IMG/VR virus record: IMGVR_UViG_3300030117_001944
Coordinates: 1 to 24,681 of that record
Direction: 5' to 3' (one strand)
Length of the DNA stretch: 24,681 nt
Source of the DNA: a virus
Shown: positions 321 through 21,441 of the stretch, piece after piece
Numbering within the stretch: position 1 is the first letter of the stretch
Layout: each line of letters opens with the position of its first letter
Notes under the pieces: generated by a model
What the model saw: only the letters and a program-made list of their open reading frames with translations
The model's database searches: none
What the model was told of the DNA's origin: nothing
Made by a program: the position numbers and the translations under genes

Positions 321-337
321 ATGCCAAGGAGTGGCAT
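321..337 (+). promoter_or_regulatory. AGGAG-pentaloop hairpin in the putative RNA
   Basis: ATGCCA (321-326) and TGGCAT (332-337) form a perfect 6-bp stem around the loop AGGAG. No gene starts here, so the AGGAG is not serving as a ribosome binding site. The same loop is found over ribosome binding sites at 853-871, 878-890 and, on the minus strand, 21441-21423. A GGA exposed in a hairpin loop is the known CsrA recognition element, and this phage has a CsrA homologue at 3585. Confidence 0.5.
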
Positions 338-341
338 CAGT

Positions 342-383
342 ATAGCCCAAGATTCGGAGTCCCGGCTTGGGCTATGCGCTTTT
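342..383 (+). terminator. Hairpin with short T tract ending the RNA region
   Basis: Ten-base arms 342-351 (ATAGCCCAAG) and 366-375 (CTTGGGCTAT) pair perfectly around a 14-nt loop, which contains a possible inner CGG/CCG pairing. TGCG and a four-T run follow at 380-383. The T tract is short and offset by four bases, so this is a weak intrinsic terminator or simply the 3' terminal stem of the RNA. On the minus strand no T run follows the stem. Confidence 0.4.
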
Positions 384-386
384 AAC

Positions 387-797
387 TTAGGATATGTATA
401 CCCAAAGTTCTAATGTACCAGTTGCAACATCTGAGCCTGGAGCCACTTGACAGGTGATATCAATAGTATCATCTGCTGTGTATTCCTTTGGAGCTACGTT
501 TGCATCTTGGTCATCGCTAACACCAGTTTGACCTGCTGTTGATCCATCGATGTAATAGTCTGGATCTGTGCCGTCACCAACATCCCACACAAGGGCTGTT
601 CCGCCGTCTAAATCGCTAGACTTAAGTACTACATCATGAACTGTCTCACCAGCAAAAACATCTACCATTTGGTACACGTCGGCTGCGTTTGGTGCTGCAC
701 TTATTGTGATTTTCCCCTTTCTAACACCTACATTTCCACTTGGAAAAGGTTTGAAAGATTGATTACCACTTACCATGTCACTTGTAAAAGTTGCCAT
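387..797 (-). CDS. Small probable virion protein (136 aa), possibly capsid decoration
   Basis: The product is acidic, rich in Gly, Thr, Asp and Val, has one cysteine and no signal peptide or membrane segment. It reads as a short all-beta protein. Residues 1-30 resemble, from memory, small hypothetical proteins lying near capsid genes in marine phages, but I cannot name a family. The ATG at 797 follows a good Shine-Dalgarno (AGGAGAG) held in the loop of a small A/T stem. It is transcribed away from the replication operon, alone in this window on this side, and its downstream neighbour on the same strand lies outside the window. A head-decoration or head-fibre role is inference from composition and likely position next to the head genes. 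Confidence 0.5.
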   Translation of the reverse strand: MATFTSDMVSGNQSFKPFPSGNVGVRKGKITISAAPNAADVYQMVDVFAGETVHDVVLKSSDLDGGTALVWDVGDGTDPDYYIDGSTAGQTGVSDDQDANVAPKEYTADDTIDITCQVAPGSDVATGTLELWVYIS

Positions 798-811: not shown

Positions 812-839
812 TGTATATCACACCACCATGGTGTAATAT
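811..839 (+). promoter_or_regulatory. Candidate promoter-operator of the replication operon
   Basis: TTGTAT (811-816) and TAATAT (834-839) are separated by 17 nt and could be a weak sigma-70-like promoter. A dyad overlies it: 815-824 (ATATCACACC) and 830-839 (GGTGTAATAT) are complementary except for one C/A mismatch, around a 5-nt centre. A dyad covering the spacer and -10 between divergently transcribed genes is the usual form of a repressor operator. No repressor gene is visible in the window. Confidence 0.4.
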
Positions 840-844
840 CTATA

Positions 845-873
845 GTCATAAAGACAAAAAGGAGTTTTGTCAA
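845..873 (-). promoter_or_regulatory. Candidate promoter for the minus-strand 136-aa gene
   Basis: Minus-strand TTGACA (873-868) is a perfect -35 hexamer, followed after 17 nt by TATGAC (850-845), a 4/6 match to the -10. The TTGACA is also part of the right arm of the 853-871 hairpin, so the match could be incidental. Confidence 0.3.
853..871 (+). promoter_or_regulatory. Perfect 7-bp hairpin with AGGAG loop, upstream leader site
   Basis: GACAAAA (853-859) pairs perfectly with TTTTGTC (865-871) around the pentaloop AGGAG. It does not act as a ribosome binding site: the nearest ATG is the real start at 894, which has its own AAGGAG. Together with the hairpin at 878-890 it gives two loop-displayed GGA motifs 22 nt apart in one leader, the layout a CsrA dimer bridges in known targets. 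Confidence 0.6.
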
Positions 874-877
874 ATAT

Positions 878-890
878 ATTAAGGAGTAAT
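878..890 (+). promoter_or_regulatory. SD-in-loop hairpin before the 70-aa gene at 894
   Basis: ATTA (878-881) pairs with TAAT (887-890) around AGGAG, the Shine-Dalgarno for the ATG at 894. The stem is short and A/T only, but it follows the 7-bp AGGAG hairpin at 853-871 and repeats its loop exactly. Confidence 0.45.
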
Positions 891-893
891 TAT

Positions 894-1106
894 ATGCCCC
901 CATCTCATGTGTATGTGAAACGTAACCCGATTCATCCATACACATACAACAACCCAAATGATTTACCTTACATACAATGGAAGTATGTCAAATTATCTGT
1001 TGCTTATACTATGTACACCAGTAAGCAAATAGGTTGGGAGCGAGCAAAACGTTCTGAATATGAAGAGTGGTGTACAAAAATGCAGAAGTTCAAGGAGGAA
1101 CTATGA
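894..1106 (+). CDS. Hypothetical protein, 70 aa, first gene of the replication operon
   Basis: A short basic protein rich in Tyr, Asn, Pro and Lys, with an aromatic N-terminal half and a C-terminal helix ending in KEEL. No family is recognised. I chose the ATG at 894 because AAGGAG lies at 881-886; a TTG further upstream at 867 has no suitable site. The stop overlaps the next start as ATGA (1103-1106), so translation of the two is likely coupled. Its leader carries two AGGAG-loop hairpins, making this the most heavily marked start in the window. As the leading gene of an early operon it may act against the host, but nothing in the sequence shows this. Confidence 0.6.
   Translation: MPPSHVYVKRNPIHPYTYNNPNDLPYIQWKYVKLSVAYTMYTSKQIGWERAKRSEYEEWCTKMQKFKEEL
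1087..1102 (+). promoter_or_regulatory. SD-in-hexaloop hairpin before the 108-aa gene
   Basis: AGTTC (1087-1091) pairs perfectly with GAACT (1098-1102), leaving AAGGAG as the loop, and the ATG follows immediately at 1103. The 19-nt junction 1091-1109 recurs exactly at 1414-1432, and the core GTTC-AAGGAG-GAAC recurs on the minus strand at 15358-15345. This is a textbook shape for a CsrA site. Confidence 0.6.
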
Positions 1107-1638: not shown

Positions 1639-1796
1639 GTTGCCAACATAATGAACGACTATTAGAGCTTTATTTTGACGAAGCTAAGGGTAATGGACTT
1701 TCTAATCTAGACGCAGAGGCTTATGCAAAAATGATGTTAGAACACGAAGGCCATCCACCGCCACAAGTTATGCAACAATTCATGGAGGGCTTGTAA
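1635..1796 (+). CDS. Hypothetical small protein, 53 aa
   Basis: A 53-residue frame starts with ATG at 1635, overlapping the previous stop as ATGA, and ends at TAA 1794-1796, overlapping the polymerase ATG by one base. It therefore fills the gap before the polymerase exactly. The product is acidic with a Cys/His N-terminus (MSCQHNE) and a Pro-rich segment near residues 41-43. No strong Shine-Dalgarno precedes it (only AAAGAAAG), so translation probably depends on coupling. Function unknown; the double overlap is the main reason to believe it is real. Confidence 0.55.
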   Translation: MSCQHNERLLELYFDEAKGNGLSNLDAEAYAKMMLEHEGHPPPQVMQQFMEGL

Positions 1797-1800
1797 TGCA
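1771..1800 (+). promoter_or_regulatory. Stem enclosing the polymerase SD and start codon
   Basis: TGCAACAA (1771-1778) pairs with TTGT (1791-1794) and TGCA (1797-1800), with two bulged A residues. The 12-nt loop contains GGAGGG (1784-1789), the polymerase Shine-Dalgarno, while part of the ATG (1796-1798) lies in the stem. This could limit polymerase translation until the structure is opened by upstream ribosomes or a protein. Confidence 0.35.
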
Positions 1801-3595
1801 AAAAATTTATTTAGACTTTGAAACCTATTTTGACTCTGTTCTAAGTCTCACCAAAATGTCTACTGTCCAATACATAAATCATTCTGATTTTAAAGTCTGG
1901 GGCGTGGGAATAAAGGTTGAAGATAATGAAACCGAATGGTATGGAGAGGATGAAACCCCCGCCATATTAGAGCAAATTGATTGGGCGAACACCGCCCTCG
2001 TTTGCCATAATACATTATTTGACGCTTATATTCTTACACAGCATTTCGGGTACAGACCGGCGTATTATTACGACACAGCGGCCATGAGCCGTGGTTTGTA
2101 TCCGAACATGTCTGCAAGACTCAAAGATTGTGTCGTGCGAGAGTTTCCGTCGGACAACAATATGCGTAAAGGTGAAGAGCTAGTTTCAGCAAAAGGCGTG
2201 CGTGACCTGGATCCTGAGATGGATAACACGATCGGGCAATATTGTATACAAGACGTAGATCTAACGTACGCACTTTTTCAAAGTTATACAAACAAAAACT
2301 TCCCGTCCGATGAGCTAGATCTAATCGACCTCACGACGCGAATGTTTGTAGAACCTAAGTTATTAATGAATCGTGGACTTCTGGAAGATTACAAAGAAGA
2401 AATGCAACAACGAGCAACTGAAGCAATAGCGGCATCAGGTGTTACACGAGAAGTTCTTGCGTCACAACAAAAGTTCGCTAAGCATCTAGAATCACTAGAT
2501 ATTGTAGTGCCAACCAAAAAGTCCCCACGCACAGGTGAACAGATACCAGCTTTTGGTAAAAACGATCCTGCCTACATACAAATGTGCAACATGTATCCAG
2601 AACACCGTGCACTTTGGGAGGCCAGAGAGGTTGTTAAGTCACGTATTGATGAGACCAGAGCACAAAGGTTCATTGATTCAACCAACCCTGATGGTACATT
2701 TAGCATACCACTGCGTTATTATGCAGCCCACACTGGGCGTTTTGGTGGCTCAGACAAAATCAACTTACAGAATCTGCCACGCGGATCTAAATTACGACAC
2801 GCAATCATGGCCCCAGAAGGTCAAGCCTTGTACATTGCTGACTTATCTAATATAGAAGCACGCATGCTTGCATGGCTTGCTAATCAAGAAGATTTACTTC
2901 GTGCATTTGCTGAAGGGCGTGACGTATACTCGGAGTTTGCGTCCCAAATATATGGGCGCACAATTACTAAAGAAGACAAACTAGAAAGATATGTCGGCAA
3001 AACCGCAGTCCTCGGGTTAGGTTATGGCATGGGACACCAAAGATACAAAGATACTTTAAAATCAGGTTCGCCATCAGTTGATATTGGTGATCAAACAGCA
3101 CAAGCCATTGTTACACAGTACAGAAGCATGTATCCAAACATACCTCAACTTTGGTCTGGTATGAAAAACCTACTTTGGGAAATGCTTACACCTAGTTCAA
3201 ATGGCCTGTCTTATGGACCACTAATCGTTCGTGCACGCGGGCTTGAGCTGCCTAATAGCATGCAACTTAAATATCCAAACTTAAGACATGATAAAGCAGA
3301 GTTTACTTATACTTCTAGAAACGAATACATACGCACGCACGGACCAAGACTCACTGAAAATGTAGTCCAAGCACTTTCACGTATTGTTATTACTGACCAA
3401 ATGTTAGACATACAAACACTACCTGAAGTTGACATAGTCATGCAAGTTCATGACGAGATTATAGCTATAGGTTCTAATATTGATTCAGATGTTATACTAA
3501 ATAAAATATTAACAATAATGAAAACACCACCTAAATGGTGTAAAGATCTACCGTTAGACGCAGAGGCAAGTATAAGTTCTATTTATGACAAATAA
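1796..3595 (+). CDS. Family A DNA polymerase with 3'-5' exonuclease domain
   Basis: The phage replicative polymerase, 599 aa, with proofreading and polymerase domains but no 5'-3' exonuclease. Exonuclease motifs: LDFET (D7, E9), HN...D (H71, N72, D76) and YxxxD (Y149, D153). Polymerase motifs: TGRxxxxxxNLQNLPR at about 313-329, motif A with D349 (DLSNIEAR), the O helix R398-x3-K402 with Y410-G411, and motif C VHDE (H552, D553, E554). All catalytic residues are present. The position equivalent to E. coli Phe762 is Leu406, a variable residue in phage polymerases. The gene overlaps its upstream neighbour by 1 nt and the csrA-like gene by 11 nt, so all are probably one transcript with the primase-helicase. 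It acts in the host cytoplasm on the phage genome. Confidence 0.95.
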   Translation: MQKIYLDFETYFDSVLSLTKMSTVQYINHSDFKVWGVGIKVEDNETEWYGEDETPAILEQIDWANTALVCHNTLFDAYILTQHFGYRPAYYYDTAAMSRGLYPNMSARLKDCVVREFPSDNNMRKGEELVSAKGVRDLDPEMDNTIGQYCIQDVDLTYALFQSYTNKNFPSDELDLIDLTTRMFVEPKLLMNRGLLEDYKEEMQQRATEAIAASGVTREVLASQQKFAKHLESLDIVVPTKKSPRTGEQIPAFGKNDPAYIQMCNMYPEHRALWEAREVVKSRIDETRAQRFIDSTNPDGTFSIPLRYYAAHTGRFGGSDKINLQNLPRGSKLRHAIMAPEGQALYIADLSNIEARMLAWLANQEDLLRAFAEGRDVYSEFASQIYGRTITKEDKLERYVGKTAVLGLGYGMGHQRYKDTLKSGSPSVDIGDQTAQAIVTQYRSMYPNIPQLWSGMKNLLWEMLTPSSNGLSYGPLIVRARGLELPNSMQLKYPNLRHDKAEFTYTSRNEYIRTHGPRLTENVVQALSRIVITDQMLDIQTLPEVDIVMQVHDEIIAIGSNIDSDVILNKILTIMKTPPKWCKDLPLDAEASISSIYDK

Positions 3596-3830
3596 AAATT
3601 TAATACTTACAAGAAAAGTAGGAGAAAAAATTGTCGTGCATGATTCAGCATCTGAGCTGGAATTATGTACGATTACTGTAACTCAAGTTTCTAACAAACA
3701 ATGCAAGTTAGGGTTTGAAGCTGACCCAACTATACGCATTGATAGAGAAGAAGTATACTTAAATAAGGAGAATAAAAATGCAAACCATCTTTCTCAAAGC
3801 AAAAAAATCATTAGTAAAAGAAATAACTAA
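3585..3830 (+). CDS. csrA: CsrA/RsmA-family RNA-binding regulator
   Basis: An 81-aa homologue of the global post-transcriptional regulator CsrA, a dimer that binds GGA in RNA hairpin loops. The N-terminal strand reads NLILTRKVGE (E. coli LILTRRVGE), and the C-terminal strand IRIDREEVY matches VAVHREEIY, keeping the key RNA-contact arginine (R54, E. coli R44). R10 and K11 match E. coli R6 and R7. Compared with E. coli there is about a 6-residue insertion after HD (residues 19-20) and a longer basic tail after residue 60. The gene starts 11 nt inside the polymerase gene without a good Shine-Dalgarno and ends 53 nt inside the primase-helicase gene, covering that gene's own AAGGAG. It may control phage genes whose ribosome sites lie in hairpin loops, the host, or both; that is inference. 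Confidence 0.85.
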   Translation: MTNKNLILTRKVGEKIVVHDSASELELCTITVTQVSNKQCKLGFEADPTIRIDREEVYLNKENKNANHLSQSKKIISKRNN

Positions 3831-21422: not shown

Positions 21423-21441
21423 TTAAATACTCCTTATTTAA
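21423..21441 (-). promoter_or_regulatory. Perfect 7-bp SD-in-loop hairpin before the 81-aa gene
   Basis: Minus-strand TTAAATA-AGGAG-TATTTAA is a perfect 7-bp stem with the ribosome binding site AGGAG as pentaloop, and the ATG follows at once at 21422. The loop equals that of 853-871 and 321-337 although the stems are unrelated, so structure and loop are kept while arm sequence differs. Confidence 0.6.

Follow-up and report, generated by a model that had tools for sequence, protein, structure and literature searches.

The stretch analyzed here, referred to as the window, spans 24,681 nt and comes from a 24.7-kb virus record that belongs to a marine-type phage family with genomes of roughly 60 kb. 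Its features are collected in Table 1. The replication operon has the order gene 1, small genes, polA, csrA and then a primase/helicase-like gene with DUF5906. The leader discussed below heads this operon, as the preliminary description had claimed, since the operon starts with gene 1 and continues through polA and csrA. A search of viral_contigs with polA yielded 55 relatives, and csrA lies directly 3′ of polA in every related contig that holds the stretch. Searches of Pfam and PHROG with the 70-aa product of gene 1 gave no match. A second, deeply diverged group of phages (group 2) was reached by searches with CsrA and two distant polymerases. The comparison overall covers about 100 relatives; the locus sets include near-copies, and counting by families lessens this redundancy but does not remove it. 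One relative, L273 (a 60.8-kb contig with a polymerase 74% identical), has been assigned by binning to a MAG of Candidatus Neomarinimicrobiota, which is either a weak hint of the host or a binning artefact.

Table 1. Features of the window, with positions counted from its first nucleotide
Feature	Position	Strand	Properties
3′-UTR hairpin	321-337	+	ATGCCA-AGGAG-TGGCAT; end of upstream operon; not an SD; -6.7 kcal/mol
Terminator-like hairpin	340-377	+	directly 3′ of the AGGAG hairpin; -31 kcal/mol and z -4.4 for 318-380
Divergent gene	387-797	-	weak PHROG match, virion structural protein (phrog_486, E 3.7e-4)
Hairpin A	815-839	-	divergent structural gene, leader hairpin; minus strand folds at -12.4 kcal/mol
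Putative -10 box	841-846	+	TATAGT, replication operon; scan match 9/12 with ATCACA, 18-nt spacer
Hairpin B	853-871	+	GACAAAA-AGGAG-TTTTGTC; first GGA site; likely 5′-terminal mRNA hairpin; -4.0 kcal/mol folded alone
Hairpin C	878-890	+	ATTA-AGGAG-TAAT; SD (882-886) in loop; second GGA site
Gene 1	894-1106	+	70 aa; first in operon; ATG at 894; orthologue in 44/55 related loci
Gene-1-end hairpin	1087-1102	+	AGTTC-AAGGAG-GAACT; last codons (KFKEEL), SD of next gene in loop
polA	1796-3595	+	DNA polymerase family A; PF00476
csrA	3585-3830	+	81-aa CsrA-family RNA-binding protein; start overlaps polA stop
SD-in-loop hairpin	21423-21441	-	TTAAATA-AGGAG-TATTTAA; before ATG of an 81-aa gene; arms of relatives differ yet pair

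Sequence comparison places the 81-aa protein in the CsrA/RsmA family. It matches PF02599 (E 1.2e-12, 48 bits against a cut-off of 27) and phrog_9500, a CsrA-like regulator (E 2.6e-13), and its sequence matches in the PDB are CsrA/RsmE. Among 12 diverse members, the RNA-contacting motif LxLTR is invariant and IDR[EQ]E is kept. The AlphaFold2 model (pLDDT 80.8) consists of five strands (residues 6-10, 15-20, 26-31, 40-44 and 50-54) followed by a helix (residues 55-76). A structure search with this monomer model, set against a strand-swapped dimer fold, gave a best E not below 0.4, with RsmF at rank 9.

The preliminary description had placed two AGGAG hairpins, B at 853-871 and C at 878-890, before the ATG at 894. 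Both are present, and their GGAs begin at 861 and 883, which gives the 22-nt spacing that it had reported. It was also right that the first AGGAG is not a ribosome site of gene 1, as this motif ends 29 nt upstream of the ATG; the sole nearby start codon is a TTG at 867, which shares the frame of gene 1 and would extend its product to 79 aa, but with just 2 nt separating it from the AGGAG (860) it is an unlikely start. The word AGGAG occurs at an ordinary frequency in the window (33 observed against 30 expected). AGGAG loops closed by a perfect stem of at least 4 bp number 5 against 0.16 expected, those with at least 6 bp number 3 against 0.0075, and a tandem pair of such hairpins was found in none of 400 first-order Markov sequences. 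The three strongest AGGAG hairpins of the window are the one in the 3′ UTR, hairpin B and the SD hairpin on the minus strand at 21423-21441. The AGGAG loop of the window is a pentaloop closed by an A-U pair, and becomes AAGGAG if this pair opens. It differs from the SELEX consensus RUACARGGAUGU and from a clean ANGGAN hexaloop; many relatives have ACGGAG in hairpin C, and the deep ones CAGGAUG in hairpin B. Hairpin C of the window, folded alone, has an MFE of 0, i.e., it does not fold, and a real stem is seen in relatives only. An Rfam search of the window gave no match.

From the putative -10 box we infer that transcription of the replication operon starts at about G853, with which hairpin B begins. 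The motif ATAAAG (848-853) does not vary among the aligned leaders, and promoter-like matches in the scan are no commoner than in shuffled sequences. A single-subunit phage RNA polymerase was considered as the origin of the ATAAAG/TATAG start motifs and set aside, as PF00940 was empty in 8 related contigs; this is a weak result because the control was also unmatched. Hairpin A shows C·A changes on the plus strand, equivalent to G·U on the minus strand, in most loci, and behaves there as a hairpin of the minus strand.

Alignment of 41 leaders, 37 of them distinct, established how hairpin B evolves. Its invariant blocks comprise most of the SD region as well as ATAAAG and GTCAA. In the B stem, three pairs show compensatory swaps between A-U and U-A, and G-U wobbles occur on the plus strand only (18 GT cells, 0 CA cells); thus, B is an RNA hairpin of the plus transcript. 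Non-compensatory changes in this stem, which the preliminary description had named as evidence against its proposal, did not emerge, and in deeper relatives different arms pair as well. A short upstream reading frame at B was rejected because the frames are not conserved across leaders. Leaders also seem to have been exchanged by recombination: L027 and L024/L028 have near-identical polymerases and different leaders, and L027 has the AGGAG loop of the window and L032.

With the stem of B kept, its loop can be AGGAG, ATGGA, ATGCA, TCAA or TCTT. Hairpin C is found in most relatives as a stem of 8-9 bp, with mostly plus-strand G-U wobbles and an ANGGAN-like loop over the SD that reads AGGAG, ACGGAG or AGGA. 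In group 2, B is CATTC-AGGAT-GAATG, CATTT-AGGAT-AAATG or CATTT-AGGAA-AAATG, none of which is an SD, and C is AGTT-AGGAG-AACT. In the leaders of the L090 type, ATTA-TGGA-TAAT lies on the start codon itself, with no SD upstream. Pattern matching gave 49 distinct leaders (50 matches minus 1 that was spurious). Each of the 49 has the second GGA and 22 have the B-loop GGA, the GGA starts then being 19-24 nt apart. On the rows of the polA tree, the B-loop GGA is present in 45 of 76 relatives and absent in 31, which requires 11 or more changes of state; the deep half of the tree mostly has it (34/41). By our own estimate, a random 5-nt loop would contain GGA in a few per cent of cases. Judged from these leaders, the GGA of B is often kept yet dispensable. 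Since 31 of the 76 relatives do without it, B has a further role, and since the stem outlasts its GGA, B is probably also the 5′-terminal hairpin of the mRNA. The view that the B-loop GGA is an accident, which could be held from group 1 alone, was dropped in view of the AGGAT and AGGAA loops of group 2.

This pattern bears on an explanation that needs no dedicated protein, in which the hairpins are structural aids, B protecting the 5′ terminus against mRNA decay and C keeping the SD displayed and unpaired. Such aids would account for a B stem that is kept while its loop changes and that begins at the predicted +1, for a divergent transcript that also begins near a strong hairpin, and for an SD conserved for its own sake. 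They leave unexplained why 45 of 76 relatives have a B-loop GGA, why the loops of the deep clades are the CsrB-like AGGAT/AGGAA and why a GGA is kept without an SD, and we consider this explanation unlikely.

The known system that the leader resembles is the E. coli glgC leader, where one CsrA dimer anchors on an upstream hairpin site and bridges to the SD site (PMC7652899). The resemblance lies in the GGA hairpin followed, about 22 nt on, by another GGA that overlaps the SD, within the bridging distance of one dimer, next to csrA. CsrA dimers bridge sites 10-63 nt apart with an optimum above 18 (PMC7652899), and the preliminary description was correct in that both the 22 nt of the window and the 19-24 nt of its relatives fall within this range. 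The phage differs from glgC in that the operon encodes CsrA itself, the leader is very short, the sites are in short hairpins and the SD is in a loop. A second likeness is to the repeat hairpins of CsrB/RsmZ, whose element is CAGGA(U/A/C)G in the case of CsrB (PMC7652899): the CATTC-AGGAT-GAATG hairpin of the deep relatives (UUCAGGAUGAA) holds this very element in its loop. However, CsrB/RsmZ are sponge RNAs with many sites, whereas the phage has one or two, in an mRNA leader.

On this comparative basis, the leader is probably a glgC-like two-site CsrA operator that limits translation of the phage's own replication operon. The earlier proposal of a CsrA-regulated leader therefore stands in part: the stem covariation, the presence of csrA in the operon and the spacing speak for it, and the restriction of the B-loop GGA to 45 of 76 relatives and the very weak hairpin C of the window speak against it. 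Further points against an operator are the departure of the window's pentaloop from the SELEX consensus and the clean ANGGAN form, the lack of SD-hairpin enrichment in unrelated phages with a host-like csrA, and three loci whose 3′-UTR site has no GGA. We infer the binding, the direction of the effect and its timing as follows. Transcription would begin near G853, with B as the 5′-terminal hairpin of the mRNA. As CsrA builds up, a dimer would anchor on B, in those phages whose B loop contains GGA, and then bridge to the GGA/SD of C, so that C is closed and the ribosome excluded. Translation of gene 1 would decrease and, by coupling, that of the later genes, including polA and csrA itself. Where B has no GGA, control would depend on the C site only, and other hairpins with the SD in the loop would be further single-site targets. 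In this role, the phage CsrA would be comparable to T4 RegA and would reduce the expression of early genes after replication has begun. Like RegA, its gene is located in the replication cluster and its proposed action is on the starts of many early mRNAs (PMC3014915); in contrast, the two proteins are unrelated, and RegA sites are unstructured A+U-rich RNA while the phage sites are structured GGA loops.

The idea of the preliminary description needs widening, as the loop motif also occurs at other gene starts and in a 3′ UTR. Gene starts were defined by rule, without a gene finder, as an AGGAG located 4-12 nt upstream of an ATG that opens a frame of 40 codons or more; expected stems were obtained by shuffling the right arms among sites, with permutation P values that are rough and apply per set. 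SD-centered hairpins numbered 15.2 against 1.95 expected per set of 86 families in group 1, and 4.15 against 0.35 in group 2 (32 families). A hand recount traced the enrichment of group 1 to six unrelated families plus the gene-1 junction, to which polA and the 55-aa gene of L001 were assigned. The hairpin of the DUF3310/nucleotide-kinase-like family pairs TTTGTTT with AAACAAA in one group and ACTATTA with TAATAGAT in the other, so that place and structure are the same and the letters differ. Sites with GGAG or AGGA only gave mixed results, GGAG being somewhat enriched in the csrA-less control too.

The junction itself, AGTTC-AAGGAG-GAACT-ATG, precedes 15 different gene families in the relatives, and counting it as many targets was rejected since it is mostly one conserved gene end. 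Its silent sites are almost frozen in 29 distinct sequences, with one compensated variant, AATTC/GAATT. Codons for KFKEEL/KSKEEL together with the next SD recur at several ends of small genes between gene 1 and polA (1087-1102 and 1408-1430 in the window), and the small genes near these ends are a highly variable set.

Two control sets showed no enrichment. In csrA-less marine phages of the HMO-2011 type, SD-centered hairpins numbered 0.01 against 0.32 expected (101 families, 593 sites; G+C 0.44 against 0.38), an absence that structural aids also leave unexplained. Unrelated phages with a host-like csrA had 1.0 against 0.78 expected (232 families); the hairpins are therefore a trait of this lineage with csrA in its operon and not of csrA carriage. 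The single-phage controls (KPP25, RHph_TM3_14A, phiA008, HMO-2011 and PSTCR8lys) had too few AGGAG sites, some with higher G+C, and are individually uninformative.

The host-like csrA result also weighs on the idea that the hairpins are sites for the CsrA of the host, the phage protein serving another purpose, e.g., on host mRNAs or CRISPR-Cas. Phage-encoded RsmA/CsrA proteins, which share the family with the one described here, have indeed been proposed to act on host targets or CRISPR-Cas (PMC8450108). However, phages with a host-like csrA lack such hairpins, and here csrA is conserved inside the very operon concerned; the evidence points instead to the phage's own mRNAs, and sites for the host protein appear improbable. 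Even less credit can be given to a shut-off of early mRNAs in which the GGAG loops are recognized by an endoribonuclease similar to T4 RegB or by some other RNA-binding factor of the phage. RegB cleaves GGAG at early translation starts, as well as small RNAs with the GGA unpaired, but RNA structure generally impedes it and its preferred sequence is GGAGRAYARAA (PMC3014915). The elements found here (GGAGTTTTGTC and GGAGTAATTAT) are in hairpins, many relatives have GGAT or GGAA, and the AGGAT/AGGAA and ATGGA loops contain no GGAG.

Among the candidate CsrA sites is also the AGGAG hairpin at the end of the upstream operon, which is followed by the terminator-like hairpin. Its AGGAG loop is kept in 30 of the 33 loci with the element; in L006, L007 and L042 it is AAGAG and the GGA is lost. 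It is a single conserved GGA hairpin, and not the series of several that marks CsrB/RsmZ. In about 20 loci, the 3′ UTR of the same operon contains an RNA module, some 100 nt long, that is conserved and structured: TTGACTCTCTTGAnGAAnAGC...GGAGATAGAGAGTCA (2-128 in the window; also L002:892-991, L011:3104-3205 and others). Its closing stems covary, with both sides changed at 6 of 13 pairs, and an Rfam search with it gave no match. After the stop codon of the upstream operon and ahead of the ATGCC-AGGAG hairpin and terminator, which are fixed, the modules differ from phage to phage or are absent (129-320 in the window; also L005, L026, L029, L031, L032 and L015); they look structured, and some end in CCGCCT. 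This region resembles a hot spot of small RNA cassettes.

Altogether, the comparison suggests that the phage uses a borrowed bacterial regulator on its own genes and not on those of the host alone. More tentatively, a lytic-type phage lineage may have turned an acquired CsrA into a translational switch of early genes, with genome-wide operators that hold the SD in a loop, feedback on the operon, and a GGA hairpin in a 3′ UTR that perhaps titrates or positions the protein. Phage-encoded CsrA has so far been read as a tool that bends host physiology or defence (PMC8450108), and the open-access literature, which leaves most subscription journals outside, contained no report of phage mRNAs being targeted by a phage CsrA. 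The comparative evidence presented here points to the phage's own mRNAs as CsrA targets, with a defined candidate operator. If this is true, a bacterial global regulator would have a RegA-like role inside a virus, and a short, perfectly paired hairpin at the start codon with AGGAG or AGGAW in its center would be a signature by which such self-regulons could be found in uncultured phages.
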